Below the pieces are notes generated by a model that was given only the letters and a program-made list of their open reading frames with translations, did not search any database and was not told the origin of the DNA. This document shows positions 9,578-36,084 of a DNA stretch of 49,791 bases, piece by piece. How positions within the stretch are numbered: position 1 is the first letter of the stretch; each line of letters starts with the position of its first letter. The position numbers and the translations under genes were made by a program. Source of the stretch: a virus. The DNA is taken from positions 1-49,791 of IMG/VR virus record IMGVR_UViG_3300033148_002914, one strand, 5' to 3'.

Positions 9578-9584
9578 GTGCGCC

Positions 9585-12279: not shown

Positions 12280-12298
12280 TATTGTACAACCGGGTAGT

Positions 12299-12319
12299 GG
12301 TGGGCGGATTTCGCCTACC
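12299..12319 (+). other. 8-bp stem-loop between two genes
   Basis: GGTGGGCG (12299-12306) pairs with CGCCTACC (12312-12319), with one G-T pair and a five-base loop. It lies between the accessory block and the DNA-processing genes. No U-tract follows, so it is a weak terminator candidate and may instead influence the start region of the next gene. Confidence 0.5.
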
Positions 12320-12332
12320 CCCTTGGTGAAAG

Positions 12333-12338
12333 TATGGT
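12333..12338 (+). promoter_or_regulatory. -10 box TATGGT, probable leaderless promoter
   Basis: TATGGT ends six bases before ATG 12345, and no Shine-Dalgarno sequence is present in the gap. The spacing equals that at 29369 and 33770. No convincing -35 box is visible. Confidence 0.45.
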
Positions 12339-12344
12339 GATTTG

Positions 12345-12815
12345 ATGCAAGATGAGCCCTACCAGTCGATGATTGACAAGGTGCGTCATATGCGGCCCAT
12401 TCCGCCTTGTGACGACCTCGAAGCCGAGTCCTGGGGGAAGTTCGACAAGCTTCTCAAGAAGAACCTCGACGTGATGAAGGCCCGGGACGTCGAGCGGCCC
12501 ATGCACGTCCTCTCCGAGGCCCTCTTCGATATCGCGGCTCGGGACGGCAAGCTCGACCAGGGCATTCAGACGACCGCGTACAGAGCACTGGACACGAGGC
12601 TCCTGACCGACGAGTATGGAAGACTTCGGCGGGTCATTCAGGAGATCGCTGACGGCAAGCGGGAGGTCATTGACTCCTTCTTCCCGAAGTTCCTCTGGCA
12701 GATTCCACCGTCGGTGGGCGACCAGGCCTACCGCGACAACGCGCCCCTCGCGGTGCTCAAGACCATCGCCGGCCACCTCCGGCGACGCAGCATCCTTGGG
12801 GTCCAAAGGGGTTGA
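12345..12815 (+). CDS. Hypothetical protein, 156 aa
   Basis: I use ATG 12345, preceded by TTG in frame and by a -10-like box but no ribosome site. The product is mainly helical and charged, with a conserved-looking LFDIAARDGKLDQGIQTTAYRAL-type middle and a basic end. It sits one base upstream of the Cas4-like nuclease and is probably co-expressed with it. Family unknown. Confidence 0.6.
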   Translation: MQDEPYQSMIDKVRHMRPIPPCDDLEAESWGKFDKLLKKNLDVMKARDVERPMHVLSEALFDIAARDGKLDQGIQTTAYRALDTRLLTDEYGRLRRVIQEIADGKREVIDSFFPKFLWQIPPSVGDQAYRDNAPLAVLKTIAGHLRRRSILGVQRG

Positions 12816-12816
12816 C

Positions 12817-13752
12817 GTGGGTATCTCAGACGTTCTCAAGGAAGTGCAGGAGGTCAAGGACCAGGGCGACTGGCTCGCTCCGTACCTGATGGAGTCCCTC
12901 TGCAAGCGGGAGGTTCGTTCCGTGCGTCCGGGCATGTGGCTCGGGCCATCCACCATCACTGGAACCGGGTTCTGTCCGCGGGCCTGGACCATCGCCTACC
13001 GGCTCAATCTGCCGCTTGTGGATGACTTGGCTCCGGACAATCGGTGGTGGATGGATTTCGGAACCGCCGGCCACACAATGATGCAGGACAGGTGGCTCGG
13101 GCCGGCGAAGCTCATCAAGGGTGGTTGGAAGTGCGAGCACTGCCTTTACACCGTCGGAATCGACCCGGACGACAAGACCGAGGTCTTCTCTCACGGCGCC
13201 CCTATCATCGACAAGGTGACGCTGGCCTCGGCCATCCACTACCCCGAGGGCCCGTGCCCCGAGTGCGGCATGGAGCCCACCTGGCGTGAGGGGTGGACCT
13301 TCGTCGAGCCCGCCGCCTACGACACCGACAACCTCATCGCGGGGTGGAGCGACGGCATCATCACGATGCCAGGTGCCCCCGACGAGGTGGTCGACTTCAA
13401 GTTCCCCCTGAGTGTCTCGTGGAAGCGTAGGAAGCCGGAGCAGTCGCACGTTGCCCAGGTCTCCCTCTACGGTGACATGCTGGGGGTCGACCGTGGGCGC
13501 ATCTTCTACGTCGAGAAGGGCAAGAAGCACCTCGTTGACGCCATCGTGGAGCACTCTTTCATCATCGACCCCAGGGTGGTGAAGCAGCAGAAGGAGAAGG
13601 TCCGTGTCTTCCGCGAAGCCCTCGAAGCCTCGAAAAGTGAATCCAGCCTCCCAGCCTGTCCAGATGGAGGTAAGGGCACGTACGGTCCTTGCTCTTGCGT
13701 CGACCTCGAAGCTGTCTGGAAGGCTCATGGGCCTCGACCTGGCGCTTCGTGA
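12817..13752 (+). CDS. Cas4/RecB-like PD-(D/E)xK exonuclease with zinc and Fe-S cysteines, 311 aa
   Basis: The start at GTG 12817 follows an AAAGGGG site; the frame is open from 12616, but that would overlap the previous gene. Motifs in order: Cys53 in GFCPRAW; His86 in DFGTAGHTMM; a zinc-ribbon insertion (CEHC 106-109, CPEC 147-150); Asp179 in AGWSDG; D193-x-K195 in EVVDFKF; and a QSHVAQVSLYGDML helix. The C-terminus carries a Cys cluster (CPDGG..GPCSC), as in Cas4/AddB-type Fe-S nucleases. The expected reaction is metal-dependent cleavage of DNA ends. Likely roles are recombination or DNA-end processing during replication. Confidence 0.85.
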   Translation: MGISDVLKEVQEVKDQGDWLAPYLMESLCKREVRSVRPGMWLGPSTITGTGFCPRAWTIAYRLNLPLVDDLAPDNRWWMDFGTAGHTMMQDRWLGPAKLIKGGWKCEHCLYTVGIDPDDKTEVFSHGAPIIDKVTLASAIHYPEGPCPECGMEPTWREGWTFVEPAAYDTDNLIAGWSDGIITMPGAPDEVVDFKFPLSVSWKRRKPEQSHVAQVSLYGDMLGVDRGRIFYVEKGKKHLVDAIVEHSFIIDPRVVKQQKEKVRVFREALEASKSESSLPACPDGGKGTYGPCSCVDLEAVWKAHGPRPGAS

Positions 13753-14266
13753 GACCGGTGTCATCGTCCTGAGCGAGCGTGGAAGCCTCCTGCGGCGGTT
13801 CACGCTTTTCTATCCGTTGACACGGAAGAAGAAGAGCGACCCGCCCATCACCGAGGCGGACCGCATCGAGAGGCTCATCAATCTGACAAACGAAATCGTT
13901 GGGATAACAAAGAAATACGGAATACGGTACGTCGCTGTGGAGGGGTACGCCTACGCCAAGAAGTACCAGGCTCACCAGATCGGGGAGATCGCGGGCAACG
14001 TCAAGGTCCAGTTGTGGCTCGCCCGAAAGATTGTCACCGACACGGTGCCGCCCTCGACTGCTCGAAAGCACTTCTTCGACTACGGCAAGCCTTCCAAGGA
14101 TCAGGTGATGGAGGTGGTCCGAGACCGTCTTGGGCTGCGAGTTGGAAACGACCACGAGGCTGATGCCTACGTGATTGCTCGCTATCTCTTTGACGAGATG
14201 GTGGGCCGAGAGAAGGAGATGGCGCGTTATGGTGATGGAGCCAAGGAAGAGGCGGGGAGTCCCTGA
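13727..14266 (+). CDS. RuvC-like Holliday junction resolvase, 179 aa
   Basis: The RNase H-like active site is visible: Asp4 in MGLDLALRETG, Glu72 in VAVEGYAY, and a C-terminal NDHEADAYVIA with acidic residues 142-146. This is the RuvC layout, and length fits the family (about 150-180). It should cut four-way junctions before packaging. I start at ATG 13727 after a GGAAGG site. The first strand is then short, so a start farther upstream in the overlap is possible. Adjacency to the Cas4-like nuclease suggests a recombination module. Confidence 0.85.
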   Translation: MGLDLALRETGVIVLSERGSLLRRFTLFYPLTRKKKSDPPITEADRIERLINLTNEIVGITKKYGIRYVAVEGYAYAKKYQAHQIGEIAGNVKVQLWLARKIVTDTVPPSTARKHFFDYGKPSKDQVMEVVRDRLGLRVGNDHEADAYVIARYLFDEMVGREKEMARYGDGAKEEAGSP

Positions 14267-15494
14267 GGGCAAGCAGATTCCCGAGGTTGAGTCCACGAAC
14301 CTCGTCCCCATCAAGGGTGGCGATCCGGTCGAGGTGCTGACGGCGGATGAGACGTACGCAAACTCCGTCCACCTCCGCATCATGGCTCTCCTCAAGCAGT
14401 ACGAGGAGACGTATTTCGAGCTTGCCAGGTCGCTGTTCGAGGTGTCGGCCCGCAAGCTCTATCGGAGCATGGACAGCAAGTACCCATCCTTCGAGAAGTA
14501 TGTCGAGGAGGCCGTTGGAATCGACTTTCGCAAGGCCAAGTATCTCGTTTCAATATGGTGGTGGTTTGGTATCGAGCAACGAGCTGATCCGGCGTTGCTT
14601 CGGGGGGCCCAGGAGATCGGTTGGTCCAGGGCCAAAGAGCTTGTTGGGGTCGTTGACAAGAAGAATGCTGAGGTGTGGTTCGAGATCGCCAGGACGAAGA
14701 AGCGAGATTTCCTCGTCCAGGCGGCCAAGGCGGCGCTGAAGAAGGCCGGGAGGAAGCGGCGGCGCACTGCGCCGGAGAGTGTCTTCCAGGGCGAGTTCGA
14801 GTTCGCCGAGGAGTCACAGAACCTCCAGCCACCTACCGTCGTTGACGAGGAGGGAGCCCAGGATCAGGAGACCACCATGCTGCCGGACGAGACCCCGGCC
14901 GGAATGAAGACCTTGAGTCCCGAGCCTCCCAAGGGAATGAGGATGGACGGTCCGAGTCCCCCAAGCGGCATCGACACGAGCGATGGCAGCGGTACGAAGG
15001 CGTCGACTGAAACACTGCCGCTGGAGGGGGTTGCGCCGCCCGAGGATGTTGTTGGTGCCGTGGCCGACGAGAAGTCCGAGAGTGACAAGTGGACCCGGGT
15101 CTATTTTGACCTACACGAGGACTTCAAGAAGACCGTCGAGGTGGCCCTGTCCAACGCCAAGAGGATCGGGGAGACGGAGCACGCAGGCTACGCCCTGTCC
15201 CTCGTCTGTCTTCACTATCTGAGCTTCTACAGCGAGAAGTGGTCGGTGGAAATCGGGGAGTGGCTGCATCGTATTGAGGCGGTGACAGGTTTCACGATTT
15301 TCGCGATGAACGAGCGGACGGACGAAATCATTTACGGCCAAGACCTCTTGGACAGGATTGTGGCCAGTGAGGAGAAAGACGATGCAGGTGAGTCGGGAAT
15401 TGGCGATGCGGGAGATGGAGTCGGTGAGGAAGGAGTTGGGGGCGTGGATCCGGGAGATGAAGGATCCGAAGGTGCTGAACCGGGAGGGGAATGA
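14229..15494 (+). CDS. Large protein with KorB/ParB-like helical domain and low-complexity linker, 421 aa
   Basis: AAGGAGAT supports ATG 14229. Residues about 50-170 are helical, with YPSFEKYVEEAVGIDFRKAK, SIWWWFG and GWSRAKELVGVV segments. I associate this pattern with plasmid and phage proteins that carry helix-turn-helix units of a ParB-like kind. A Pro/Glu/Gly-rich linker follows (about 185-285), then a second helical domain (WTRVYFDLHEDFKKTVEVAL to LLDRIV). The acidic Gly-rich tail is encoded in the region shared with the next gene. DNA binding is inferred, not proven. Confidence 0.55.
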   Translation: MVMEPRKRRGVPEGKQIPEVESTNLVPIKGGDPVEVLTADETYANSVHLRIMALLKQYEETYFELARSLFEVSARKLYRSMDSKYPSFEKYVEEAVGIDFRKAKYLVSIWWWFGIEQRADPALLRGAQEIGWSRAKELVGVVDKKNAEVWFEIARTKKRDFLVQAAKAALKKAGRKRRRTAPESVFQGEFEFAEESQNLQPPTVVDEEGAQDQETTMLPDETPAGMKTLSPEPPKGMRMDGPSPPSGIDTSDGSGTKASTETLPLEGVAPPEDVVGAVADEKSESDKWTRVYFDLHEDFKKTVEVALSNAKRIGETEHAGYALSLVCLHYLSFYSEKWSVEIGEWLHRIEAVTGFTIFAMNERTDEIIYGQDLLDRIVASEEKDDAGESGIGDAGDGVGEEGVGGVDPGDEGSEGAEPGGE

Positions 15495-15624
15495 GGTCGA
15501 CCCATACCCGGACGGTGTGCCGGCTGGCCTGTCCGTGGCACAGGTAGAGGGCATTCCGGTGTCACAACTTCGTGCCGAGCTTGCTGTCCTTGCTGCTAAA
15601 CTAGAAGCTCTAGCCTCGACGTGA
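15382..15624 (+). CDS. Hypothetical helical protein, 80 aa, overlapping the previous gene by 113 bases
   Basis: GAGGAGA precedes ATG 15382. The first 37 codons lie inside the 3' end of the 14229-15494 gene in another frame. The product is a plausible coiled-coil protein (SRELAMREMESVRKELGAWI at the start, LRAELAVLAAKLEAL at the end). The overlapped partner is low-complexity there, which suggests this frame is the constrained one. Confidence 0.6.
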   Translation: MQVSRELAMREMESVRKELGAWIREMKDPKVLNREGNEVDPYPDGVPAGLSVAQVEGIPVSQLRAELAVLAAKLEALAST

Positions 15625-15636
15625 TAGGGTCGAGGC
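15613..15636 (+). other. 7-bp inverted repeat before the 993-residue gene
   Basis: GCCTCGA (15613-15619) pairs with TCGAGGC (15630-15636) around a ten-base loop, just before the GGAGG ribosome site. It could act as an RNA stem in the leader or as a protein-binding site. Confidence 0.5.
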
Positions 15637-15649
15637 CGGAGGTTCACGG

Positions 15650-18631
15650 ATGGTCGTGACGGGGTTGGCGGCGGACCTCTCTTCAATGCAAGAGCGTACC
15701 GCTAAGGACTACAGCATCAAACTGTCTGTTCATCCGAGGGATGTCGCGCTCGTCTACAAAGGCGCCGCGAAGCCAATCCCTGGACGTTCTGGCAAGATCA
15801 GTGTCGACAACGCCGGGCCTGGCAAGCTCGTCGTGAAGGGAGACATCGAGTCCGTGCGTCGTTTCGTCAACGACATGCGGAGGGCAGGTGTGCGTTACAA
15901 GGTCGTCACAGAAGACCTGGCGACCGAGCTGGCGCCGTTGTTGGAGACGATGGTCTCGGCACCTGATCAACTGATGCTGGCCATTGGGCCGCTCCGGAGC
16001 TTCACGCGGGCGCTTGACCGGATGATGGCTGCCGGCAACGATCTCGTGGAAACAGCCGAGCGTGCCGGCTATGACCGCATCGAGATCGCCAACTCGATCC
16101 GTGGGTGGAATCGGCAGCTTGGTGGCATCTACGGCGACTTTGCCAAAGCCAGGGGCCTCATCTACAACGCCGCCAAGGCGGCCAGCATCCCCACCAAGCG
16201 GTTCAGTCGGCGCAAGCCGAAGAAAAACCTCAAGGGGATGCAGCTTCCGGGGCTGGCCAACGATGCTGACCGTATCGCAAGGGGTCTCGCGAAGGGCATC
16301 GGCAAGACCGGGAATCAGGCCGCGTTCCTCCTTCGCAATCTCGACAAGCTCGACAAGAAGTGGACGAAGAAGATGCCGCCGGCTGACAGCGATGCCTTCA
16401 GGGGCGACGCTGCTGCCGTCATCTCTGAGTTCCTCGTCCTGAGGGACATGGTGGGTGGCTCCATCTTCGCGGCCATGAACGGCATCGTGCGACGTCTGGA
16501 CGCCATGTCGCTGCTCCAGAGTGGTGACCGTTTCGGCAGCCCGCCACGGCCGCTCAAGGTGCCCTCGCCGGCAGACGTGGATAGGCTCCAGCCGAGGGGG
16601 CGGGAGATCTCCAAGAAGGTTCCGACGGAGAGGACGCCAAAGCTGAAGGAGATGCCGAGGCCGCGGAATGAGAAGCCGGTTGTGAGTCCGAAGGGCGTCG
16701 AGGGGTTGGAGCACATCAAGGGCAACGTGTACGAGCATCCGATGATGGGCAAGGTGATCGTCAAGAACGGTCGCATCTTCACCCCGGGCAGTAACATCGA
16801 GTTGGAGATGCAGATCGACGGCAGTCTTGCTCTCAAGCAATCGAAGAAGCACAAGTACAGGAATCAAGCCGGAGGACCATCTGCGGCTTGGGGCGAGTCA
16901 AGATCGTCGCTGGTCGACTTGGCATTGCTTCTGGGTGAGGAAGGGTCGGTGGAGGGCGTGATGGACAATCGTATTCCTGGGGCGGATTCCATGTTTGAGG
17001 AGATCGTGTCGTTGGAGCATCGGCGTGCTGCTGGTGAGTACGCGCTGGACAACGGTCAGACGGCACGCCCGACTCCGAGCAACGTTCGTTTCCTGAAGGA
17101 GATGGGGGCGCTCGAAGAGGCCTACAGCGGCACCGTCTACAGGGATGGCAAGAACACGTACGTCGATACCGCCTTCATCAACAACGTCACCGGGATGATC
17201 CCTGGCTTCGTGGTGAAGCACATGGGGTTCGGTGAGTTCTCGCTTGAAGGTCCGGATTCCTCCATCGAGTTCGACCGGATGCGCGGCAAGGACTTCCCGG
17301 GCCAGAGTGGTCGGAGCCACCTGATCTACATGCGTCGTGGAGGTGACAAGAAGATCATCTCGAAGCTCGTCGCCAAGATGGTGAAGAAGGGGAAGGCGAA
17401 GATCGTCAAGGCGACGAAGGTTCCGACGCCGAAGGACGTGGCCAAGAAAACCGGGATGCGGGTTGCCGGTAAGCCGAAGGGTCAGATCCAGAAAGACATC
17501 TACGCCTTCTTCCAGAAGGGTGTTCTGTCTTCGGGTGGACGAAATCCGTGGCTCGACGCAAATGACGCCATGCGTCTGAAGTCCAATAGGCCTGTAGAGT
17601 TTGGTCAGGTGATAAGGTCTCTCGAAGCGATGACCAAGAGCGGCATCCTCGATAAGAAGCCGGGCACTGCGCCTGGCCCCATGGGCAAGAATCCGAGGTA
17701 CCGCCTGGCCGAGGAGACCCAGATCACGGAGGCCAAGCTCAAGGGTTCGATGAAGGAGTTGCTCAAAGACCTTGGCACCCGGGTTTTCGAGTTCGATCAT
17801 GCGAAGCTCCTGAAGAGTGGCATCATCGCCGTCAGGCGTGACTCACGGACTCCGGAGTGGGCTTATTTCAAGCTGGACCTCAGCAAGGGGACGGTGAGCA
17901 GAGTCACCAAGCAGGGTGGTATCCAGAAGACTGTCAAGGTTCGGTCGATGGACTTCATGGGTATTGTCCCGGCGATGGCAGGGCTTACGAAGTGGGCCAT
18001 CGAGGGCGATTGGGAGATGAGCGGAAAGCCGGGTCCTCCGTTCAAGTCGAAGTACGAGTCTCTCGACGAGGGCATGACCAAGGGCTTGTCGATGAAGGAG
18101 TTGTTTCATTTCTTGGGCACGCGAGTATACGAGGTCGATCATGCCAAGCTCCTCAAGGGTGGCATCATCGCTTTGAGGCGTAATCATCCCAGGAAAGAAT
18201 GGGCTTACTTCAAGCTGAATCCTGATGCCAGGAAGGTCGCCAAGGTCACCAAGCAAGGCAAGGTGGAGACCACCTACAACGTCAAGGGTGCTTTCAACAC
18301 CATGTCCATCATTGCGGCGATGATGAATGCGGTGAAATGGGAAAATGATTCCTCCTGGGAGATCAGTGGAAGGCCGTCGCCTCCGTTCAAGTCGCAGTAC
18401 GAGTCTCTCGACGAGGCCAAGGGTTATCCAGGCTGGAAGCGCAAGGAGACGAAGTGGGGCATCGAGTACACGAAGGGCCCATTCGTCATCTCGGCTTCTT
18501 CGGGCGGCGTCGGTGGTGGTCGTTGGGACGTCTACAAGGGCAGCAAGAAGCTCGGGACTGCCCCCTCGGTTGAGGCTGCCATCAACGCTCTCCAGCGGCG
18601 TGTGGAGTCCCTTGACGAGGCCAGGGTCTAG
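15650..18631 (+). CDS. 993-residue modular protein with tandem repeats and Leu/Ile-x-Glu junctions
   Basis: GGAGG at 15638-15642 supports ATG 15650. Residues 15-90 are beta-rich; 90-290 are helical; 290-350 form a Pro/Arg linker. Later come a beta segment, a basic region (KLVAKMVKKGKAKIVKATKV) and two tandem 114-residue repeats starting at residues 701 and 815 (both MKELL/F..LGTRV.E.DHAKLLK.GIIA.RR). The repeats are bordered by ITE-A (692-695), SLDE-G (805-808), SLDE-A (920-923) and SLDE-A (988-991). These fit the Leu/Ile-x-Glu cleavage rule of T4-type prohead proteases. I infer a head-packaged polyprotein. No enzyme motif is recognised. Confidence 0.75.
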   Translation: MVVTGLAADLSSMQERTAKDYSIKLSVHPRDVALVYKGAAKPIPGRSGKISVDNAGPGKLVVKGDIESVRRFVNDMRRAGVRYKVVTEDLATELAPLLETMVSAPDQLMLAIGPLRSFTRALDRMMAAGNDLVETAERAGYDRIEIANSIRGWNRQLGGIYGDFAKARGLIYNAAKAASIPTKRFSRRKPKKNLKGMQLPGLANDADRIARGLAKGIGKTGNQAAFLLRNLDKLDKKWTKKMPPADSDAFRGDAAAVISEFLVLRDMVGGSIFAAMNGIVRRLDAMSLLQSGDRFGSPPRPLKVPSPADVDRLQPRGREISKKVPTERTPKLKEMPRPRNEKPVVSPKGVEGLEHIKGNVYEHPMMGKVIVKNGRIFTPGSNIELEMQIDGSLALKQSKKHKYRNQAGGPSAAWGESRSSLVDLALLLGEEGSVEGVMDNRIPGADSMFEEIVSLEHRRAAGEYALDNGQTARPTPSNVRFLKEMGALEEAYSGTVYRDGKNTYVDTAFINNVTGMIPGFVVKHMGFGEFSLEGPDSSIEFDRMRGKDFPGQSGRSHLIYMRRGGDKKIISKLVAKMVKKGKAKIVKATKVPTPKDVAKKTGMRVAGKPKGQIQKDIYAFFQKGVLSSGGRNPWLDANDAMRLKSNRPVEFGQVIRSLEAMTKSGILDKKPGTAPGPMGKNPRYRLAEETQITEAKLKGSMKELLKDLGTRVFEFDHAKLLKSGIIAVRRDSRTPEWAYFKLDLSKGTVSRVTKQGGIQKTVKVRSMDFMGIVPAMAGLTKWAIEGDWEMSGKPGPPFKSKYESLDEGMTKGLSMKELFHFLGTRVYEVDHAKLLKGGIIALRRNHPRKEWAYFKLNPDARKVAKVTKQGKVETTYNVKGAFNTMSIIAAMMNAVKWENDSSWEISGRPSPPFKSQYESLDEAKGYPGWKRKETKWGIEYTKGPFVISASSGGVGGGRWDVYKGSKKLGTAPSVEAAINALQRRVESLDEARV
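17750..18415 (+). repeat. Two tandem 342-bp coding repeats
   Basis: The units start at 17750 and 18092 and encode homologous 114-residue modules of the 993-residue protein. They have diverged in DNA sequence but share the pattern KLLK-GGII-RR, EWAYFKL, VTKQG and a PPFKS-YESLDE end. Confidence 0.85.
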
Positions 18632-18642: not shown

Positions 18643-19179
18643 GTGACCTACAAGGCGAAGACACCCCTGGAGAAGGCCATCGGTCAGATGGTTCGGTCGC
18701 AGGGTGGACCTTGGCTCTCCGAGAAGCAGATGGCGAGTGCCGTTGCGGTAATGAAGAAGAAGGGCATCACGGAGCCCGGCAAGGACTCGTACGACGACAT
18801 CGCCAGGGTGGTCGGCAAGTTCCTTTCGAAGTATCGCAAGAAGGTCGCTGAATCCGTCGGAGCCATCGAGGAAGAGAAGCTCACGCCGGGGTCCTTGTTG
18901 GCCTACATGAAGAAGACTGGTCACGAGGTTTCCGTCGGTGTCCTGGCCTCCAGCTTCAGCCTGAGGCCTGAGAAGGTCACGGCCATGCTCTCGAAGATGG
19001 TGAAGGAGGGGAAGCTCGCCAGAGCCAGGCGGCGGCGCATTTACGTCTACATGCTGCCGCCGCAGGCCAAGGCCCAGGCCGAGGAGGCCGAATCCATCGA
19101 GGAGGCCATCAAGCACAACCTCTCCAAGATGCTTCCGTGGGCCGACGACCCCGAATTCGGCGGCACCAACGCCATCTGA
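18643..19179 (+). CDS. Winged-helix protein, 178 aa, GTG start
   Basis: GAGGAGGCG precedes GTG 18643. Residues about 1-75 are helical and basic. Residues 85-145 look like a winged helix: LTPGSLLAYMKKTG, then VGVLASSFSLRPEKVTAMLS, and a wing KLARARRRRIYVYML. The wing is flanked by ESVGAIEE-E and AESIEE-A, which match the junction motif of the preceding protein. It may bind DNA and may be trimmed by the prohead protease. A palindrome and promoter follow the gene. Confidence 0.65.
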   Translation: MTYKAKTPLEKAIGQMVRSQGGPWLSEKQMASAVAVMKKKGITEPGKDSYDDIARVVGKFLSKYRKKVAESVGAIEEEKLTPGSLLAYMKKTGHEVSVGVLASSFSLRPEKVTAMLSKMVKEGKLARARRRRIYVYMLPPQAKAQAEEAESIEEAIKHNLSKMLPWADDPEFGGTNAI

Positions 19180-22077: not shown

Positions 22078-23898
22078 GTGGCAGACAAGAGAACAGGGCT
22101 CTTTGAGGGGTTCGCAAAGGGAGCGGGGCAGGCCGTTCGTTCCTTTTTCGCTCGGTCGTCGCAGCAAGCAGCTTTCGACCTCAGGAGAGGCGGCACGCCA
22201 TCGGTTGAGCGTGCTGGGATGCCGTACACCCTCGTCAGCCAGTTTGGCTATGACACCCTCGCCGAGCACCTCCGAATCGATCAAGATCTTCAGGCGCGCT
22301 ACACCGACGCCGAGGAGATGGATGAGTACCCCGAGATTTCGGTGGCGCTCGACATCTACGCTGACGATTCTTGCACCCCGGACCTCGACAAGGAGCAGGC
22401 CATCTGGGCTGTCTCCAAGGACAAGGCCGTTGCCGACGAACTCAATGATGTGTTGCACAAGAAGCTTCTCATCGAGGACGACATTTGGGGTAACACCCGG
22501 ACCCTTTGCAAGTACGGAAATAGCTTCGGTGAGTGCCTGGTCGACGATACCGGTCTGATCGGCATCAACTACTTGCCACCTCCGACGGTCCGGCGCGTAG
22601 AGAGCCCCAGGGGCCAGCTACTTGGCTTCATCCAAGACGTCCGAGGAGAGTTCAACATTTCACTGGAGGACTTCTACACGCTCGCCCAGCAGCGTGGTGA
22701 GGCTTCTGAGGTCATCCGTGGTCGAGCCCCGGGCGAGCTGTCAGTTTTCGAGGATTGGGAGATCATTCACTGGCGTCTCAGGGGTAAGCACCTTCGCAGC
22801 ATTTATGGGCATGCCGTCATCGATCCGGCCCGTTGGATCTGGAAGCGCCTCTCCCTTCTCGAAGACGCTCTCCTCATCTACAAGCTAGAGCGTGCTCCGA
22901 GTCGGTATGCCTTCTATATCGACGTCGGCGAGCTTGATGCAGAGCGCGGTCTTGCCCACGTCAATCGGGTCAAGAACGCCTTCACGAGGAAGAAGTTCGT
23001 CAATCCGAGCACCGGCAAGCTCGACATGCGCTACAACCCGCTGGCGCACGACGAGGACTTTTTCGTGCCCGTGCGCGGGGGCAAGCGCACGACCGAAATC
23101 GAGGTCATCCAGGGTCCGGACTACACCGAGACGGACAGCCTTGAATACCACCGAGACAAGCTCGTTGCGGCTCTGAAGATTCCGAAGGCCTACATGGGCT
23201 ACGGCGGCGAGCCGATGCGGGGCGCGCTGTCGTCCGAGGACATTCGTTTCGCTCGCACAGTGATGCGGATTCAGAGGGTTGAGCGCGGTGGCTACCGCAA
23301 GGCCATGAGGATTCACCTCATCGCGAAGGGTTCCGATCCGGACAAGATCGACTACGACATCCGAATGAGCGTGCCGAGCCAGATTCTTGAACTGGCTCGC
23401 ATGGAGGTCATGAACACCACTGCTCAGTTGTCTACGCAGATGAGTGAGCAGGTGAGCACCCGTTGGCTTCTTGTCCACCTCTTCAAGTTCAGTGAAGATG
23501 AGGCCGCCAAGGTCATGGAAGAGAGGAACGAGGAGCTGCTCAAGCGTGGCCAGGTGGATGCTCAGATCCAGATGCTTCAGAATGCAGCAATGGGTGGCGG
23601 TGGTGGCGGTGTGGAGGCTGCGACTGGTGACGAGGTAGCATCAGGTGGTGCTCCTGCTTTGTCCGAGGTGCGGCAGATGGAGATGCGGCTGTCGCGTCTC
23701 ATCAAGGCAGTGCCTCGGTACAACTGGAAGCATGAATTCGAAAAAGGAAACGGGGCGAGTGAGCGACGAGCAGCAGAGAAGCTCGACCGCCTTTTGAGTG
23801 AAAATGTGGGCCTCAGCAAGCGGATCAGGGAGACACAAGGTTTGCTCATGGAGGTCCGTCGGGCGATGCGTGATTCTCAGGCGTCAAGCTCTTACTAG
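22078..23898 (+). CDS. Portal protein (T4 gp20-like), 606 aa
   Basis: Twelve copies would form the ring at the head vertex through which DNA passes. The pattern is that of gp20-type portals: a hinge region with SRYAFYIDVGELDAERG, then VNRVKNAFTRKKF and VRGGKRTTEIEVIQG, followed by LVAALKIPKAYMGY. The C-terminal part is helical (residues 450-500 and 550-606), with a Gly-rich loop at residues 503-508. Start GTG 22078. It sits between TerL and the head core genes, as expected. Confidence 0.95.
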   Translation: MADKRTGLFEGFAKGAGQAVRSFFARSSQQAAFDLRRGGTPSVERAGMPYTLVSQFGYDTLAEHLRIDQDLQARYTDAEEMDEYPEISVALDIYADDSCTPDLDKEQAIWAVSKDKAVADELNDVLHKKLLIEDDIWGNTRTLCKYGNSFGECLVDDTGLIGINYLPPPTVRRVESPRGQLLGFIQDVRGEFNISLEDFYTLAQQRGEASEVIRGRAPGELSVFEDWEIIHWRLRGKHLRSIYGHAVIDPARWIWKRLSLLEDALLIYKLERAPSRYAFYIDVGELDAERGLAHVNRVKNAFTRKKFVNPSTGKLDMRYNPLAHDEDFFVPVRGGKRTTEIEVIQGPDYTETDSLEYHRDKLVAALKIPKAYMGYGGEPMRGALSSEDIRFARTVMRIQRVERGGYRKAMRIHLIAKGSDPDKIDYDIRMSVPSQILELARMEVMNTTAQLSTQMSEQVSTRWLLVHLFKFSEDEAAKVMEERNEELLKRGQVDAQIQMLQNAAMGGGGGGVEAATGDEVASGGAPALSEVRQMEMRLSRLIKAVPRYNWKHEFEKGNGASERRAAEKLDRLLSENVGLSKRIRETQGLLMEVRRAMRDSQASSSY

Positions 23899-24929: not shown

Positions 24930-25916
24930 ATGTTCAATCGAAGGGACGTGCATGTCCGTCCGCTGTCGGAAGAGCTTGAGGAGCTTGGGCTCGACCCTGA
25001 CAAGGTGATGGGCGACATCGAGCGAGTGTCCGGCAAACTCATTGACGGCGGCAGCCCGCTGACCAGCGGTGCCCATCTCGTGGAGGAAGCCGAGGCCGTG
25101 GCCGAGGCCGATCCCGAGGTGAACGACGACGACCTCTTCTTCGAGGACGACGACGAGTCGGAGGGTGAGTACACCGACGAGCAGCTCGAATCCATGGAGT
25201 TCGACGATGACGTCGACGATGAGCTTTTGGAGAAGAAGCTCGTCTTCCGCAAGCGCGGATACCGGATCAAGAAGGTCAAGGGCAAGAAGAAGCTCGTCAA
25301 GGTGACGCAGAAGGAGAAGCGCGTCGAGAAGGCCACGCGAATGCACAAGCGTGGCACTCTCCGGGCCGCCTCTCGCATGTACCGCAAGCGGTTCGCGTCG
25401 AAGATCAAGAAGCGCGCGAAGGTCCGCAAGCGCAAGCCGGCCAAGAAGGGCAGGCAGGCCATCTGGCAGAGCGACGTCTCTTCGGCGCTCGCCAACCTCC
25501 GCGAGGATCTGGAGGCGAGCGGCGTCACGACAGGAGAGCCCAGCCCCTACGAGGAGGCCGCTCTCAACGCTGGTTATCTCGCTCTGCTTCTCGGCGAGAT
25601 CTTCGAGTCCGTCGGCGACGCTGAGGCTGGTGAGATGCTCCGCTCCATGAGCGACTCGGCCGCGACCCTCTCCGAGGCCATCGAGGCGAACGGAGGCGAC
25701 GTCACCGAGGAGATCGAGGCCAAGCTCTCCTCTCTGCTGGAGGGTGTCTCCAAGGCCATGTCGGCCCACGAGAACCTCGGCGAGCCAAGCCTTTTCGAGG
25801 CCATCGAGATGGGCATCGAGAACGGACTCGTTGAGGACATCGACGAGGACGAGGACGACGACATCGACGAGGACGACGAGGACTTCTTCTTCGACGACGA
25901 CGACGACGAGGAGTAG
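24930..25916 (+). CDS. Prohead core/scaffold-like protein, 328 aa
   Basis: GAGGGG precedes ATG 24930. The N-terminus has RPLSEELEELGLD, close to the tag described in the findings. An acidic region (60-105) is followed by a very basic stretch (about 110-170; KRGYRIKKVKGKKKLVKV, later KIKKRAKVRKRKPAKKG). A helical region and a long Asp/Glu tail (DIDEDEDDDIDEDDEDF) end the protein. Alternating acidic and basic blocks between portal and protease genes resemble internal core proteins of T4-type heads. Several Leu-x-Glu sites would permit cleavage. Confidence 0.65.
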   Translation: MFNRRDVHVRPLSEELEELGLDPDKVMGDIERVSGKLIDGGSPLTSGAHLVEEAEAVAEADPEVNDDDLFFEDDDESEGEYTDEQLESMEFDDDVDDELLEKKLVFRKRGYRIKKVKGKKKLVKVTQKEKRVEKATRMHKRGTLRAASRMYRKRFASKIKKRAKVRKRKPAKKGRQAIWQSDVSSALANLREDLEASGVTTGEPSPYEEAALNAGYLALLLGEIFESVGDAEAGEMLRSMSDSAATLSEAIEANGGDVTEEIEAKLSSLLEGVSKAMSAHENLGEPSLFEAIEMGIENGLVEDIDEDEDDDIDEDDEDFFFDDDDDEE

Positions 25917-26175: not shown

Positions 26176-27771
26176 ATGGCAGAGATCCTCATTGACACCA
26201 TTCCTCTGATGTCCTTCACCCTGGAAGAGTCCACGGACCCGACCAAGAAGGGGAAGATCATCGCGAGGGGTGAGTTTGCTCGTTCCGACAAGGCGACTGA
26301 GAACAAGCGCCTCTACAGGAGTCACCTGTGGCGTCGTGAGATCGGTCGGATTTCCGAGGCGATGAGTGACCGCCGGACCTTCGGTGAGCTTGATCATCCT
26401 GCCGATGGTCGCACCAGACTTCAGCGGGTCAGCCACATTTTGACCGGCCTCAAGGTTGAGGGCAATTCCGTTATCGGAGAGGCTGAGATTCTCGACACTC
26501 CAAACGGACGAATTCTCAAGACCATCATGGAGGCTGGCGCCAAGGTTGGTGTCTCCTCTCGTGGTTTCGGGTCCACCAAGACTAACGCTGAGGGTAATGA
26601 GGAGGTCCAAGAGGATTTCCGGCTCGACACGTTCGATTTCGTCGCGGACCCTGCAACGAAGACCGCCTACCCGCAGGTGTTCCATGAGGAGCGTCAGCGG
26701 ATTCCGGAGGATGACATGGGGCTGACCCTGGTGCAGTTGAAGGAGAACTATCCTGGTCTGGTCAAGGAGTTGACCCAGGAGACGTTGGTCGACATCGAGT
26801 CAAGGGTCGAGGGACGCCTCAAGGATCGGTTTGCCGGGGAGCTTCGCCGTCAGGTGGAGCAACTCACCGAGGCGGCCGAGGAGCGTGTTCGCAGTGAGAT
26901 GTTGTCCGACCCCGAGGTGGCCAGCGCGGTCCAGATCGTCGAGCGCATTGCGTCGATGGTCCACTCCTTTGGGAGCCCCGTAGCTCACCAGCAGGAGGTC
27001 GAGGAGAAGGACACCGAGATCAAGCGGCTGAAGGACGAGCTTGCCGAGCGTGAGCTTGATATCCAGGCTGCGAAGGCCGAGGGTACCGAGCTGGGCAAGC
27101 TCGCCAAGGAGGCCGCCTACCGGCTTCACATCGAGCGGAAGTTGGCTGGCGAGAGTTCCCGCGAGGCCATCATCAAGATCATTGGCGACGTCATGCAGTA
27201 CGAGACCACAGAGGCTCTCGACGCTCGCATCGACGCCGTGAGCAAGGAGCTTTCGTCCGCGAAGGACGACAACATCGGCGAGGAGAATGAGGCCAAGGAG
27301 GTTCTTGCGACGAAGATGCAGGAGCTTGAGGCCCGTCTGGACAAGGCCGAGGAGAGTGCCAAGGACTCCGCGAAGCAGGTGAAGGAGGCCAACGAGCGCA
27401 CCCACAAGGCCATCGACATCGCCGAGCATGCCCAAGTGGAGGGCTTCGTCGAGGGGCTCGCAGCAAGTCACCCGGATGGTGACAAGTTGCGGAGTCTGTG
27501 TGAGGGCGCTGGCTCCGTGGAGGAGGCCCAGCGTATCATCGACGGATTCGAGGCGGCACCGCCTGTCAGGATCCGTGATGATGACGAAGCCCAGCGTATC
27601 CGCGCCAGGGTTGCGAAGGGCAAGGAGAGGTCGTTGGAGGAAGACACCTTCGGCGGCGGCAAGAACCGAGGAGACAACGGTCAGGCAACGGACCCGTTGA
27701 AGGCCATCGGACTCGACCTCAACGAAGAGGAGTTCGAAGAGCTTGCCGGGACCAGGGGCCTGGAGTCCTAG
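26176..27771 (+). CDS. Prohead protease fused to a scaffold-like coiled coil, 531 aa
   Basis: Residues 1-170 are a gp21-type serine protease: GKIIARGEFAR, then ENKRLY, His74 in ELDHP, a SHILTGLKVEGNSV strand pair, Ser127-Ser128 in GVSSRG, and a FDFVADPA strand. This enzyme trims scaffold, capsid and internal proteins after Leu/Ile-x-Glu in T4. Residues 180-480 are long charged coiled coils (EEKDTEIKRLKDELAEREL and others), as in scaffold gp22. T4 has these as separate genes; no separate scaffold follows here and MCP comes next. The fusion would couple scaffold and protease stoichiometry unless cleaved. Confidence 0.92.
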   Translation: MAEILIDTIPLMSFTLEESTDPTKKGKIIARGEFARSDKATENKRLYRSHLWRREIGRISEAMSDRRTFGELDHPADGRTRLQRVSHILTGLKVEGNSVIGEAEILDTPNGRILKTIMEAGAKVGVSSRGFGSTKTNAEGNEEVQEDFRLDTFDFVADPATKTAYPQVFHEERQRIPEDDMGLTLVQLKENYPGLVKELTQETLVDIESRVEGRLKDRFAGELRRQVEQLTEAAEERVRSEMLSDPEVASAVQIVERIASMVHSFGSPVAHQQEVEEKDTEIKRLKDELAERELDIQAAKAEGTELGKLAKEAAYRLHIERKLAGESSREAIIKIIGDVMQYETTEALDARIDAVSKELSSAKDDNIGEENEAKEVLATKMQELEARLDKAEESAKDSAKQVKEANERTHKAIDIAEHAQVEGFVEGLAASHPDGDKLRSLCEGAGSVEEAQRIIDGFEAAPPVRIRDDDEAQRIRARVAKGKERSLEEDTFGGGKNRGDNGQATDPLKAIGLDLNEEEFEELAGTRGLES

Positions 27772-27802: not shown

Positions 27803-29296
27803 ATGGAACAACGAAACATGCTCACAGAGGCGGGAGCCCAGAGCATTCAAGACGAGAGCTACACCGGTCAGTTGGTCGAGAAGTGGGGCCGGTTCCTCAA
27901 GGGCGTCAACGAGCCATACACCCGCAAGGTGATGGCGATGCTCTTCGAGAACCAGTTCATGGACATGCGGCGTCAGCTCAACGAGGACACGCTTTCCACG
28001 AACGCCGGCATCTACACGAAGTACATCTTCCCCGTGCTGAGGCGGGTGTTCCCCAACCTCATCGCGAACGAGATCGTGAGCGTCCAGCCGATGACCGCCC
28101 CCGTGGGCGCGGTCTTCTTCTTCGAGTACGTCCACGGCAAGTCCAAGGGGACCACGGCTGCTGGCTCCAACCTCATCCAGAACTTCGATGAGCACTACTC
28201 TTCGGAGTTCATCGAGGAGGAGCAGCTTGCTGTCGTGGCCGCAGGCCCGACGTGGAGCGGCGCCAATCCGGGAAGCGCAATCCTTCAGTACAACCCGGTC
28301 CGGCCCCTCGATACGGCTTCGAGCGTCTCGGTCGTCATGGAGGAGTTCGATCCGGCGACCGGCACCGTGGCGCAGAGCCACACCGATGACGGCGCTGGCG
28401 GATTCACCGGCGCGGCCTCGGGAGCTATCAACTACCAGACCGGCCAGATCACGAACTTCACGTTCGCTGCGGCCACAACCTTGGGCTTCCTCGTCAGGTG
28501 CTCGTATTACTACGACTCTGAGGCGAACAAGCTCATCCCCGACGTCTACATCGACATCAGCTTCGAGACCATCCGGGCCACTACCAGGAAGCTCAAGGCC
28601 AGATGGTCGAGCGAGGCGGCGGACGACCTTCGCGCTTTCCACGGTGTCGACGCCGAGACCGAGCTTGTCTCGGGTATCTCTCAGGAGATTGCGCTGGAGC
28701 TTGACCGAGACATTCTCGGCCAGCTCTTCACCGCGAGTGCCGGCATCACCAGCACCTTCGACTTCACCGTCCCGGCAGGCCTTTCCGAGGTCGACCACAT
28801 CCGGTCCGTCATGACCAGGATGAGCGCGGTCAGCTACCAGATCCACAAGCAGACCCTCAGGGCACCGGCCAACTGGGCCGTGACGAGTCCCGAGGTCTCC
28901 GCGAAGCTGGTCCAGATCCAGACGCACGGCGACTATCGCCCCGCGTGGGTCTCGAACCCGGCTGGCGTGCAGGGTCCCTACGATGGCACCGTCGTGCCGC
29001 CTTCGTACGGGCCGCTCACCGCCCATCAGGGCATTCTCCGCATGGGCCCCCTGTCCAACAAGTGGATGCTCTACCAGGATCCCTTCTTCGCCTGGAACCA
29101 GATCATGCTGGGGCTTCGGGGACAGAGCTACCTCGATGCGGGCTTCGTGTTCAGCCCGTACGTGCCGCTCCAGATGACCCCGACCTTCCTCGATCCGGAC
29201 GACCAGACCTATCGCAAGGGTCTGCGAACCCGGTACGCGACGAAGCTCCTCCGGGCCGAGTGGTTCGGAAGGGTAACGATCACTGGCGGCCTCTAG
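27803..29296 (+). CDS. Major capsid protein (T4 gp23-like), 497 aa
   Basis: AAAGGGG supports ATG 27803. The N-terminus MEQRNMLTEAGAQ has Leu-Thr-Glu before Ala, a prohead-protease site only nine residues in. Residues about 65-105 carry the gp23-type FPNLIANEIVSVQPMTAPVG followed by AVFFFEYVHG. An inserted domain (about 194-238; TDDGAGG then INYQTGQITNF) is shared with the sheath. The C-terminal half has the HK97-fold order, ending KLLRAEWFGRVTITGG. It is the last gene of the head block. Confidence 0.95.
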   Translation: MEQRNMLTEAGAQSIQDESYTGQLVEKWGRFLKGVNEPYTRKVMAMLFENQFMDMRRQLNEDTLSTNAGIYTKYIFPVLRRVFPNLIANEIVSVQPMTAPVGAVFFFEYVHGKSKGTTAAGSNLIQNFDEHYSSEFIEEEQLAVVAAGPTWSGANPGSAILQYNPVRPLDTASSVSVVMEEFDPATGTVAQSHTDDGAGGFTGAASGAINYQTGQITNFTFAAATTLGFLVRCSYYYDSEANKLIPDVYIDISFETIRATTRKLKARWSSEAADDLRAFHGVDAETELVSGISQEIALELDRDILGQLFTASAGITSTFDFTVPAGLSEVDHIRSVMTRMSAVSYQIHKQTLRAPANWAVTSPEVSAKLVQIQTHGDYRPAWVSNPAGVQGPYDGTVVPPSYGPLTAHQGILRMGPLSNKWMLYQDPFFAWNQIMLGLRGQSYLDAGFVFSPYVPLQMTPTFLDPDDQTYRKGLRTRYATKLLRAEWFGRVTITGGL

Positions 29297-31019: not shown

Positions 31020-31628
31020 ATGAGGCTTTCGGAACAGTTGGCTGGAGCGATAGCCGAGGCAAAGGACTTCAATCCGGACGAAATCGTTGTTTTTCAGAAG
31101 ACAGCCGACAACATCAGAGTGATCCTGTGGAGTGACGGCTCGATCACGAGTGGGATGGGATTCAAACTGAAGGGTATCCCACTGGTCCGGCCCAAGACGA
31201 AGGCGAAGCTCGACCTCGCCATCCGGGTCGGGTCCATGCTTCTCGGTGATTTGAGCCTCTACGATGCCTCGGAGCTTGGGGCGGCCTACAAGGCCTACAA
31301 GTGGGCAACGGAGAAGCACAAGACACCCGGCGAGGCGAGGACGAGGTTCCATAAGGCTGCCGGGGGTGGCGCGAAGAAGACGACGTTCAAGCCGAAGTGG
31401 GAGGTGCTGCGAGCTGATCGGAAAGGTAAGCCGACTGAGCGCGTTTGGCGGCTTCCTCGGATGCGTTGGCCTGGCCTCGTCGTGTGGGACCACATGGGGA
31501 AGTGGCGTGGTGGCAGAGAGCGTTATGAGCTTGTGAATCTTGACCGTGGCGGTATTGCCAAAGGCACCGGGTTCACTTTCAAGAACATGGTGGATTTGGA
31601 GCAGCATTTGCTCGGGCTGAAGTGGTGA
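31020..31628 (+). CDS. N-terminally tagged protein, 202 aa, function unknown
   Basis: ATG 31020 follows five bases after the neck gene. The start MRLSEQLAGAIAEA carries the shared tag and Ile-Ala-Glu before Ala, the same junction as T4 internal protein I. Residues 18-60 form strands, then a helix (SELGAAYKAYKWATEKHK), then a basic and Trp-rich end. No enzyme motif is seen. Inferred role: packaged internal protein. Confidence 0.65.
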   Translation: MRLSEQLAGAIAEAKDFNPDEIVVFQKTADNIRVILWSDGSITSGMGFKLKGIPLVRPKTKAKLDLAIRVGSMLLGDLSLYDASELGAAYKAYKWATEKHKTPGEARTRFHKAAGGGAKKTTFKPKWEVLRADRKGKPTERVWRLPRMRWPGLVVWDHMGKWRGGRERYELVNLDRGGIAKGTGFTFKNMVDLEQHLLGLKW

Positions 31629-32268: not shown

Positions 32269-32796
32269 ATGAGACTTTCAGCCCAGCTTTCAGAGGCGGT
32301 AAGACAGGGCTTTGGTCCTGGCGGCGCGTGCAGGTGCCCAAGGTGTGGCCACTCTGAGCCCCACAAGACAGGGAAGCCGTGCATGGACATCGTTTGCTCG
32401 AAGTGTGGAGCGAGGATGGATCGCAGCGATGCGAGTGTTGAGCATGTTGGGCTGAATGAGGTGCAAGAAGGCGCCGAAGGCGAACTGAATCTCACTGGTG
32501 AATGGGCCAACATCAAGCCAGGCACCGTGCTCACTCTGCGTCGCATGACCATTTACGCCAACCCTGGGCACGTACCGTCCGAGCGCAAATCGAAGAAGGT
32601 CGTCAAGTCGGCGAGGGTGGTGAAGGAGTTCGGAGGCGGTGGCAGTGCCCTCCTCAGCATCAGGTTCAAGAAGGCCGGCAAGAAGGACCGCGTGTTCAAG
32701 ATGAACGAGACGCGGCGTGGTGGTTACATCCTCAACAGCTACGAGAAGCCTCCGGTCAAGTATGAGGTCGAAGCCATCGACGGCACGGCGGTCTGA
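32269..32796 (+). CDS. Tagged zinc-ribbon protein, 175 aa
   Basis: ATG 32269 follows AGGGG. The tag is MRLSAQLSEAVRQG with Leu-Ser-Glu before Ala. A zinc ribbon follows: CRCPRCGHSEPHK, then C and CSKCGARMDR. The C-terminal half is beta-rich and basic (VLTLRRMTIYANPGH). Tag plus nucleic-acid-binding ribbon fits an internal protein. Family unknown. Confidence 0.65.
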   Translation: MRLSAQLSEAVRQGFGPGGACRCPRCGHSEPHKTGKPCMDIVCSKCGARMDRSDASVEHVGLNEVQEGAEGELNLTGEWANIKPGTVLTLRRMTIYANPGHVPSERKSKKVVKSARVVKEFGGGGSALLSIRFKKAGKKDRVFKMNETRRGGYILNSYEKPPVKYEVEAIDGTAV

Positions 32797-33413: not shown

Positions 33414-33752
33414 ATGACGTTGAGTGGGAAGCTGGAGGAGGCCATCCACGGTGGTGAGGAGCAGGAGACGCTCGACGAGCTTTTCGAGGTCGATGCGAGC
33501 GAGTTCGAACCCATCGAGGAGAGGTCCGGAGAGGACGCCATCACCGTCGCCAGGCGCATCGTCAAGAACCACCAGTGGGAGAAGATCCAAGGTGCGGCGG
33601 TTGACGCATGGACTGCCAGCGCCATTATTGGGGTCTACGACGCGCTCAATGAAAAGAACAAGGCGTCGTTCAGGAAGATGCCCATCCGGAAGATGGCTGA
33701 GGTGGCCATACGACTTGCCAAGATGAGCGGGGTCAAGTCGAGAGGTCTGTGA
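33414..33752 (+). CDS. Tagged protein with a VDAWTASAI-type domain, 112 aa
   Basis: GGAGGAAG precedes ATG 33414. The tag is MTLSGKLEEAIHGG, with Leu-Glu-Glu before Ala. After an acidic linker comes IVKNHQWEKIQGAAVDAW, TASAIIGVYDALNEKNK and MPIRKMAEVAI. I recall this (V-D-x-x-T-A-S-A-I, Y-D-A-L) pattern from other large myovirus genomes, also without known function. A tag joined to a recurrent domain supports modular cargo. Confidence 0.65.
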   Translation: MTLSGKLEEAIHGGEEQETLDELFEVDASEFEPIEERSGEDAITVARRIVKNHQWEKIQGAAVDAWTASAIIGVYDALNEKNKASFRKMPIRKMAEVAIRLAKMSGVKSRGL

Positions 33753-34794: not shown

Positions 34795-35021
34795 GGCTGT
34801 CTGAAGAGTTACAGGGCGCGTTGACGGAGTGGAAGAAGACGTCCGACGGATACGAGATGGTGACCTCCAAGGGCCTCGCGAAGATTTTCAGCAAGAAGGG
34901 CAAGCGTGGCGGCAAGAAGTGGTTCATGTCCATCGCCGGCAAGGAGTACGAGTTCGGGCGTCGTGCTAGCTTCGATCACGCTGAGGACATCCTCTTCAAG
35001 GTTGGAGCGAGATTCCAATGA
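34791..35021 (+). CDS. Short tagged basic protein, 76 aa
   Basis: ATG 34791 overlaps the preceding TGA. The tag is MRLSEELQGALTEW, with Leu-Ser-Glu and Leu-Thr-Glu. The remainder is a beta-rich basic unit (AKIFSKKGKRGGKKWFMSI). Trimming after LTE would leave a compact domain of about 63 residues. Function unknown. Confidence 0.65.
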   Translation: MRLSEELQGALTEWKKTSDGYEMVTSKGLAKIFSKKGKRGGKKWFMSIAGKEYEFGRRASFDHAEDILFKVGARFQ

Positions 35022-35770
35022 GCCTTGCCAGGCAGCTTTATGAGGCTACTTACGAGGCCGACGCGAAAGCCAGGGCCGAGGCCAACAAGATCTGGGACAG
35101 CATCGTCGCCTACACGGAGAAGCTGGGCTCGAAGGGCGTCAGGGACCTTCCGAGGCATCCTCAGATGAAGGGTTTCGTCGTCACCTCGGACCACACGAAG
35201 CTGCCGAGGAAGGTGCATGTCATCCTGGCGCCGAAGGGCGCACCGACAGGCATCGGCAAGACGGTCAGATTCGGGCGCACAGCCATCATCATAGGCGGCA
35301 TCCTGCTTCGGCCGTTCTCCACAGAATACATCGACACGAGGGTCGAGAGCGGCCGGGGCTCATTCGTCCACGAGTACACGCACTACCTCGACCAGCAGCG
35401 ATACGGCGCTGGTGTGGATCCGTCGGTTTCAAGGCGGGCGGCGCAAACCCAGGACTGGGAGAGGTACTTCAGGACCCCCGAGGAGTTCAATGCTTGGTAC
35501 CAAGAGGCAGCCCATCTGGTCCAGGCCGACGTCGAGAGCGCCCTGCGGGTCATCAAGCAAAAAGGTAACCCGCGCGTCACGGAGATCTTCTTCGGCAAGC
35601 TGAACAAGAACTTTTCTACTTTCAGTGCTTTCCTCGGATACGCTCAGACGAAGGGCCGCACCGCTGAGGCCGTGAACGCTTTCAAGGGCTCGAAGTGGGA
35701 GCGGAAGTGGTTGAAGAGGATGCATGGCTTGTACAGGGGCCTCAAGGTCATCGTGAAGGGGGTGCAATGA
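35018..35770 (+). CDS. Tagged zinc metallopeptidase (HExxH), 250 aa
   Basis: ATG 35018 overlaps the previous TGA. The tag is MSLARQLYEATYEA with Leu-Tyr-Glu before Ala. The peptidase motif is SFVHEYTHYLDQQRY, with zinc ligands His118 and His122 and general base Glu119. A third ligand could be Glu163 in NAWYQEAAHLV. Upstream strands (KVHVILAPKG, TAIIIGGILL) match the edge strands of zincins. Substrate unknown. Packaged in the head, it could act on host proteins after injection, or it may help virion maturation. Confidence 0.8.
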   Translation: MSLARQLYEATYEADAKARAEANKIWDSIVAYTEKLGSKGVRDLPRHPQMKGFVVTSDHTKLPRKVHVILAPKGAPTGIGKTVRFGRTAIIIGGILLRPFSTEYIDTRVESGRGSFVHEYTHYLDQQRYGAGVDPSVSRRAAQTQDWERYFRTPEEFNAWYQEAAHLVQADVESALRVIKQKGNPRVTEIFFGKLNKNFSTFSAFLGYAQTKGRTAEAVNAFKGSKWERKWLKRMHGLYRGLKVIVKGVQ

Positions 35771-36084
35771 GCCTTGCCAAGCAGCTTCACGAAGCCACTG
35801 CCGAGAAGATCGCGCTCACGCCGGGTCAACTCGTGACGGTCAGGACGCGCCATGGCAAGAAGCTTGCCCAGGGGCGCATTGTTGAGGTCGACGAGTTCCT
35901 CGGTATTGTCAGGGTCACGGACGATTCCAGCGGCGCTGACCTACAGATCGATGTCAACCCGGAGTTGTACGAGATTTGGGTCAAGCCGCCGCCGGACACT
36001 GACGTGGTGCGTCTTGGTCGCATCAAGACCTTGTATGTTCGACCTTCTTTTCCTGGCATCTACATGGGTGGGCGCTGGCGGTGA
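35767..36084 (+). CDS. Tagged SH3-like protein, 105 aa
   Basis: ATG 35767 overlaps the peptidase stop. The start MSLAKQLHEATAEK is nearly identical to that of the peptidase upstream (MSLARQLYEATYEA), with Leu-His-Glu before Ala. The rest is a small beta barrel (LTPGQLVTVRTRHGKKLAQG to GIVRVTDD) of SH3/KOW type. The two genes share only the tag, which shows tag reuse on different domains. Confidence 0.65.
   Translation: MSLAKQLHEATAEKIALTPGQLVTVRTRHGKKLAQGRIVEVDEFLGIVRVTDDSSGADLQIDVNPELYEIWVKPPPDTDVVRLGRIKTLYVRPSFPGIYMGGRWR

Follow-up and report, generated by a model that had tools for sequence, protein, structure and literature searches.

In this study, we describe gene P0001, located at 15650..18631 of a 49.8-kb virus fragment (IMG/VR record IMGVR_UViG_3300033148_002914, positions 1 to 49,791; the whole of this stretch is referred to below as the window), and propose that it probably encodes a T4-type phage polyprotein of internal head proteins, which is cut by the S77 prohead protease and whose modules are exchangeable. 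The proposal is built on features observed directly in the window and its relatives, namely the modules, the junctions between them and the conservation of these junctions, the exchange of modules at these junctions, the presence of the protease in the same phages, and a system of related leaders. Polyproteins freed by viral proteases are typical of RNA viruses; in tailed phages, to our knowledge, this has not been established as a way of making cargo proteins. The genes, modules and junctions of the window given below all lie on the plus strand, and an arrow in a motif marks the proposed cut.

Modules and junctions of P0001

The open reading frame runs through 993 codons without interruption, its full-length product being 107 kDa, and a Shine-Dalgarno-like GGAGG lies just 5' of its ATG. 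No match to the protein was found in Pfam, PHROG or PDB, and the polyproteins of two relatives, G001 (IMGVR_UViG_3300002052_000001) and G007 (IMGVR_UViG_3300002461_000812), likewise contain no Pfam or PHROG domain. An N-terminal domain, recognised by phmmer matches in relatives, covers residues 103-336 (15956..16657). The junction ALEE↓A (17111..17122, cut after residue 490) directly precedes the HMG domain (residues 491-586, 17120..17407), a module with a KHMGFGEF motif that is common to relatives. This is followed by a linker and a possibly winged-helix-like module (residues 587-694, 17408..17731), which ends in QITE↓A, then by two repeat modules of 113 aa (residues 695-807, 17732..18070; 12.6 kDa, pI 9.7) and 115 aa (residues 808-922, 18071..18415; 13.1 kDa, pI 9.7), and by a final module of 68 aa (18416..18619; 7.3 kDa, pI 9.8). 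The junctions bordering these modules are ITE↓A (17723..17734, after residue 694), LDE↓G within ESLDE↓G (18062..18073, after residue 807), LDE↓A within ESLDE↓A (18407..18418, after residue 922), and a second LDE↓A within ESLDE↓ARV-stop (18611..18622, after residue 990), which lies three residues before the stop. The winged-helix-like assignment of residues 587-694 rests on sequence only and remains a guess, as a BLAST comparison of residues ~600-695 with a leader protein of G001 that has a winged-helix-like part gave no match.

An earlier sequence-only reading of the window had described a modular protein of 993 residues, and the reading frame, repeats and junctions bear this description out. 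It had also given two 114-residue repeats with a junction spacing equal to the repeat length: the two copies exist, at lengths of 113 and 115 rather than exactly 114 residues, and the spacing fits the first two modules but not the final one. The four junctions it had placed at module ends, ITE↓A, SLDE↓G, SLDE↓A and SLDE↓A, are all real; the fifth, ALEE↓A, had been overlooked.

The repeat modules are two direct copies with a spacing of 342-345 nt and 56% identity, and their dN/dS of 0.40 indicates that they are under purifying selection. The third ESLDEA of P0001 is written in other codons (GAG TCC CTT vs GAG TCT CTC) and was therefore retained at the protein level, not merely as a DNA copy. 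Apart from a copy of the same phage, no relatives of the 113/115-aa repeat were found, and a scan for the winged-helix module likewise yielded this copy alone. AlphaFold2 gave repeat module 2 a pLDDT of 69 overall and below 50 at residues 97-104 and 106-115; the tail that carries YESLDEA, its cut site, is thus predicted to be disordered. The five fragments predicted for P0001, of about 53, 22, 12.6, 13.1 and 7.3 kDa, are all basic (pI 9.7-10.1), and those predicted for the G007 polyprotein are of mixed charge (pI 4.6-9.4).

Frequency of the junction motif

The motif [LI]xE↓[AG] was observed five times in P0001 against 1.3 expected (P 0.007-0.012), and these five sites, the only ones in the protein, all fall on module borders; there is none within residues 1-490 before ALEE↓A. 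The longer pattern ES[LIV]xE[AGSN] occurs three times against 0.009 expected. Among 35 window genes tested for [LI]xE[AG] enrichment, P0001 ranked first, the prohead protease second and a scaffold-like ORF fourth. Across the polyprotein family, [LI]xE[AGS] was found 54 times against 16.8 expected, the maximum in 2000 shuffles being 32. Two findings count against the polyprotein reading: total [LI]xE is merely mildly enriched in P0001 (12 vs 7), and the N-terminal region holds other [LIVM]xE triplets in its interior. Counter-examples were also met in proteins not expected to be cut, with ESIEEA in a TerS-like ORF and YESLSEA in the terminase. The latter is probably due to chance, because the terminases of relatives read YEQLAEIEY at that place; it nevertheless shows that the junction motif alone is not proof.

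Head genes of the window

The window encodes a T4-type portal protein (22078..23898; PF07230, 1.5e-57), an acidic ORF with three [LI]xE↓[AG] sites (24930..25916), inferred to be a scaffold protein on the basis of its position and composition, an S77 prohead protease of the T4 gp21 type (26176..27771; PF03420, 5e-18; phrog_207, 2.5e-43), which is the proposed cutter, and a gp23-type major capsid protein (27803..29296; PF07068, 6.6e-64, with gp23 matches in PDB). A candidate maturation site of the capsid protein, QLNE↓D (27977..27988), keeps its L and E in relatives, where the counterparts QLQE↓D in G001 and QLSE↓D in G007 lie in the expected maturation region and the middle residue is free. All searched records of relatives longer than 100 kb contained both the S77 protease and gp23.

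A further Peptidase_S77 match, weak and below the cut-off (10910-11248 of the window; E 7.7e-5, 17.1 bits), may represent a prohead-protease paralog that has diverged. In the contigs L009 and L010 (IMGVR_UViG_3300023256_000014 and 3300023297_000020), the protease and capsid matches cross in-frame TGA and the ORFs are fragmented; this phage possibly reads TGA as an amino acid.

Exchange of modules among relatives

G001 and G007 are syntenic with the window across the head genes, with identities to the window of 60-62% for the terminase, 60-63% for the portal, 47-48% for the protease and 71-72% for the capsid protein. By BLAST, the G007 polyprotein (991 aa, 30004-32979) has only the HMG domain in common with P0001. 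Between its remaining modules lie AESLDE↓A, ADSLDE↓A and NESLDE↓A, with differing codons, and its C-terminus, DLEE↓AIRSSRDSSFG, is comparable to the terminal ESLDE↓ARV of P0001. The sequence-only reading had held that homologs in which the junction residues vary freely while the modules are kept would refute it. The opposite was seen, since [ED]SLDE↓A is kept in G007 between differing modules and, where a module is kept, the P3 (L/I) and P1 (E) residues preceding it are kept and P2 is variable. A survey of module number in homologs, which had also been proposed, found that number and order both differ.

A terminase-based scan and phmmer showed that the N-terminal domain of P0001, either alone or extended, is encoded by a conserved gene that lies directly 5' of the terminase genes. 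The phmmer matches (E 1e-24 to 1e-4) were in L100, L096, L122, L141, L116, L098, L099 and L106, and a counterpart also lies near the C-terminal end of the G001 polyprotein. The lengths at this locus are 303 aa in L100, 532 in L122, 575 in L116, 678 in L099 and 773 in L141. The proteins of L099, L116 and L141 have their first ~395 and last ~105 residues in common with differing pieces between, and L122 shares the first part. The piece that precedes ALEE↓A in P0001 can still be recognised in L101, where it ends in ELEE↓A and leads into another module; later in the chain comes SLNE↓AKG and then a module that is 57% identical over 61 aa to the N-terminus of the ORF next to P0001 in the window. There this ORF (18643..19179) is separate and starts 12 nt after the P0001 stop, which itself stands three residues past ESLDE↓A. 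Behind the module shared with L101, it has a winged-helix-like module that is also found in the G001 polyprotein, a junction SIEE↓A (19096..19107) and a PWADDPEF tail. Similar tails, PWADDPEF, PWASDPDF and PWENDPEI, were seen behind the last modules at 19070-19176 of the window, at the C-terminus of the G001 polyprotein and in L106_1391-2140, in two cases behind an IxE junction.

Homologs of the HMG domain were found in the polyproteins of G001 (a chain of 1,180 aa), G004 (IMGVR_UViG_3300023296_001057; 608 aa, with ES[IV]NE junctions) and G007, and in stand-alone ORFs of L005, L008 and L009, small single genes in which the domain stands behind leaders such as MKLTETKLREIIKEEIQKLNE↓G. A [LI]xE triplet lies 13 to 16 residues before an anchor residue of the domain in 6/6 contexts, and in G007 as a seventh; the triplets are LEE, LTE, LNE, INE, LKE and INE, plus LHE in G007, with the middle residue free, as it is in the T4 gp21 rule. 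The sequence upstream of the domain otherwise differs between the window, G001, G004 and the leader-type genes. In a shuffle test on four independent contexts, for which one of the three leader types was taken, 7/2000 shuffles of the upstream sequence did as well for [LIVMF]xE and 2/2000 for [LI]xE. The domain, which begins right after the junction, is predicted to be compact (AlphaFold2 pLDDT 89). A fold search against PDB and BFVD gave no match with E < 0.001, and no HMG domain was found in bacterial genomes.

For a further module, KINGV, [LIVMF]xE precedes the domain in 8/9 contexts with upstream sequence, which was equalled in 0/2000 shuffles. Against this, the stand-alone KINGV genes L020, L029 and L031 have no junction ahead of the domain, and G001b is without LxE before it. 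In L005, L008, L009 and G001d, the same modules are encoded by genes of their own, each behind a leader that ends in LxE. A search of annotated phage records gave no direct homologs of P0001, the HMG domain or the L005 KINGV protein, and the KINGV module was found among them in phage Melnitz only.

A leader system shared by small genes

Five proteins of the window begin with a leader that has LxE↓A or AIAE↓A at its end. The leaders are MRLSEQLAGAIAE↓A (31020..31628), a longer variant outside the strict pattern, MRLSAQLSE↓A (32269..32796), MTLSGKLEE↓A (33414..33752), in an ORF with a KINGV module behind PIEE↓R, MSLARQLYE↓A (35018..35770), in an ORF with a zincin-like HEYTH motif, and MSLAKQLHE↓A (35767..36084). 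The strict pattern M-x-L-[SA]-..-L-x-E↓A was found 4 times in the window phage, against 0.06 expected, and 7 times each in G001 (0.20 expected) and G007 (0.25 expected). The proteins behind these leaders are unrelated to each other, and one of those in G007 has a RelA/SpoT domain. The G007 polyprotein itself, counted among the seven cases of that phage, opens with a clean leader, MSLADLLSE↓S. That of P0001, MVVTGLAADLSSMQE↓R, is degenerate at best, and this is the main gap in the polyprotein argument.

Proteins with a RelA/SpoT domain (PF04607, above cut-off) were seen at L059:6888-7883 in G007 and L003:5512-7545 in G001; the former has the leader MRLSEQLAE↓A and LLAE↓A ahead of the domain, which suggests a packaged alarmone-type enzyme. 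In L005 (IMGVR_UViG_3300022912_000005, ~374-18206 in the locus), more than 12 small ORFs located between head and tail genes have nearly the same leader, MKLTESKLRKIIKEEIQKLNE, with unrelated proteins behind it; it probably represents the capsid-targeting leader, in a longer form, of a different T4-like group. A gene block of Methylophilales phage Melnitz (L036, 4204-15206) has leaders such as MKKFSEIIE↓A, MQGFKTFLSE↓A and YITE↓D, which precede a cytidylyltransferase-like domain, DUF6267 and shuffled modules. Melnitz (MZ577097) is a cultured Kyanoviridae phage and follows the same head-cargo logic; in its gp20 and gp30, modules stand behind L-x-E-like sites.

Proposed mechanism and alternative explanations

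We propose that P0001 would be built into the prohead core as a single chain and that the S77 prohead protease (26176-27771) would cut it after the Glu of L/I-x-E during head maturation, at the flexible module ends at residues 490, 694, 807, 922 and 990. Five basic proteins would be released, would stay with the packaged DNA and would probably be ejected into the host, like the T4 internal proteins. The modules would be exchangeable cassettes, which recombination would swap, add or split at the cut sites, leaving each phage with a different module set. The inference of a polyprotein, already made by the sequence-only reading, is strongly supported by the comparison with relatives; cleavage itself is inferred in the absence of virion protein data for these phages in the sources covered, as are head location, ejection and any module function, for which there are no protein-level data.

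P0001 could instead be an uncleaved multidomain protein, present in the virion or injected in the manner of polyvalent proteins, with the E-rich L-x-E stretches serving as no more than flexible linkers that travelled with the modules when these were copied. There are good descriptions of injected phage proteins that shuffle their domains without being cut by a prohead protease (PMC5512222), the tails around ESLDEA are predicted to be disordered, as expected of linkers, and the P1-P3 rule is short. Against this, L/I at P3 and E at P1 are kept at matching junctions where P2 and the spacing vary, unrelated modules of G007 are capped by the same motif, and modules alternate between the polyprotein and a single-gene form behind leaders with this L-x-E end; moreover, the site at the extreme C-terminus joins nothing. 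We regard this explanation as unlikely.

A polyprotein cut by some other peptidase, such as a host protease or the HEYTH zincin-like protein at 35018-35770, appears very unlikely. That protein has a head-type leader besides its HEYTH motif, and zincin metallopeptidases have been put forward as the enzymes that process polyvalent proteins (PMC5512222), but Pfam gives no peptidase in it, nor did PHROG give any match. The junctions, for their part, obey the L/I-X-E rule of S77 proteases of the gp21 type and agree with the sites seen in the leaders and the capsid protein of this phage. Hardly any weight was given to a non-virion protein, for instance a DNA-binding or regulatory one, with modules duplicated by chance and unrelated to head maturation. 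The basic charge of every predicted fragment (pI 9.7-10.1) and the winged-helix-like module in the neighbouring ORF would suit such a role, but in many phages the N-terminal domain of P0001 is conserved next to the terminase genes, and the polyprotein of a relative bears the leader common to many small genes.

Beyond the single gene, we lean towards the view that tailed phages use a true polyprotein strategy, in which folded proteins, packaged in the head and probably injected, are strung together in a single gene and freed by the prohead protease as the capsid matures, and the cut sites double as recombination joints for the exchange of cargo. If this is true, an L/I-x-E before a new domain, or a nine-residue leader, would reveal packaged or injected proteins from sequence in many unstudied T4-like phages, and it is among such proteins that inhibitors of bacterial defence, T4 IPI for example, are found. 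The swapping of cargo without harm to packaging would be explained as well.

Comparison with known systems

The cut motif of T4 gp21 is L/I-X-E, and internal proteins are sent into the head by a capsid-targeting sequence of 10 residues (PMC9026906); the leaders described here resemble that sequence in length, place and L-x-E end (PMC9026906). The T4 internal proteins IPI, IPII, IPIII and Alt, which are matured by gp21, resemble the P0001 system in the head genes, the S77 protease, the proposed L/I-x-E cut and, except that it is degenerate at best in P0001 itself, the short leader, and both are basic and rapidly diversifying (PMC9026906, PMC3012670). In T4, however, each internal protein has its own gene and loses terminal propeptides, whereas P0001 has several modules per chain and proposed internal cut sites. 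The T4 core proteins gp22, gp67 and gp68 also receive several L/I-x-E cuts per chain (PMC9026906), but most of what these cuts yield is debris lost from the head, whereas the proposed cuts in P0001 fall between modules, some of which are separate genes elsewhere.

The inner-body and ejection proteins of SPN3US and phiKZ are a further parallel, with a gp21-like protease, many internal proteins and several propeptide sites (PMC5694885, PMC10052503). It counts against the present proposal that in SPN3US the identified cleavages all concern N-terminal propeptides, except for self-cleavage of the protease (PMC10052503). The release of several modules is unreported there.

Polyvalent proteins are likewise multidomain, undergo fast domain shuffling and are thought to be injected (Iyer et al. 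2017, PMC5512222), and the P0001 family similarly has several different domains per chain that are shuffled between phages. RelA/SpoT domains occur in polyvalent proteins and in P0001-type phages alike (PMC5512222), and the authors of that work draw an analogy to RNA-virus polyproteins (PMC5512222). Polyvalent proteins differ in having effector or enzymatic domains, often with an embedded metallopeptidase, whereas no known one was found in P0001; their processing is assigned to the embedded zincin peptidases, whereas the junctions of P0001 carry the prohead-protease motif. No description of a chain of separate cargo modules opened by a prohead protease was found in the open-access literature, subscription papers being mostly not covered. 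L/I-x-E maturation, leaders and core proteins cut at several sites (PMC9026906, PMC5694885) are known, as are injected polyvalent proteins with shuffled domains (PMC5512222), and what appears to be new is the proposed placing of separate cargo modules in one chain that would be opened by the prohead protease.
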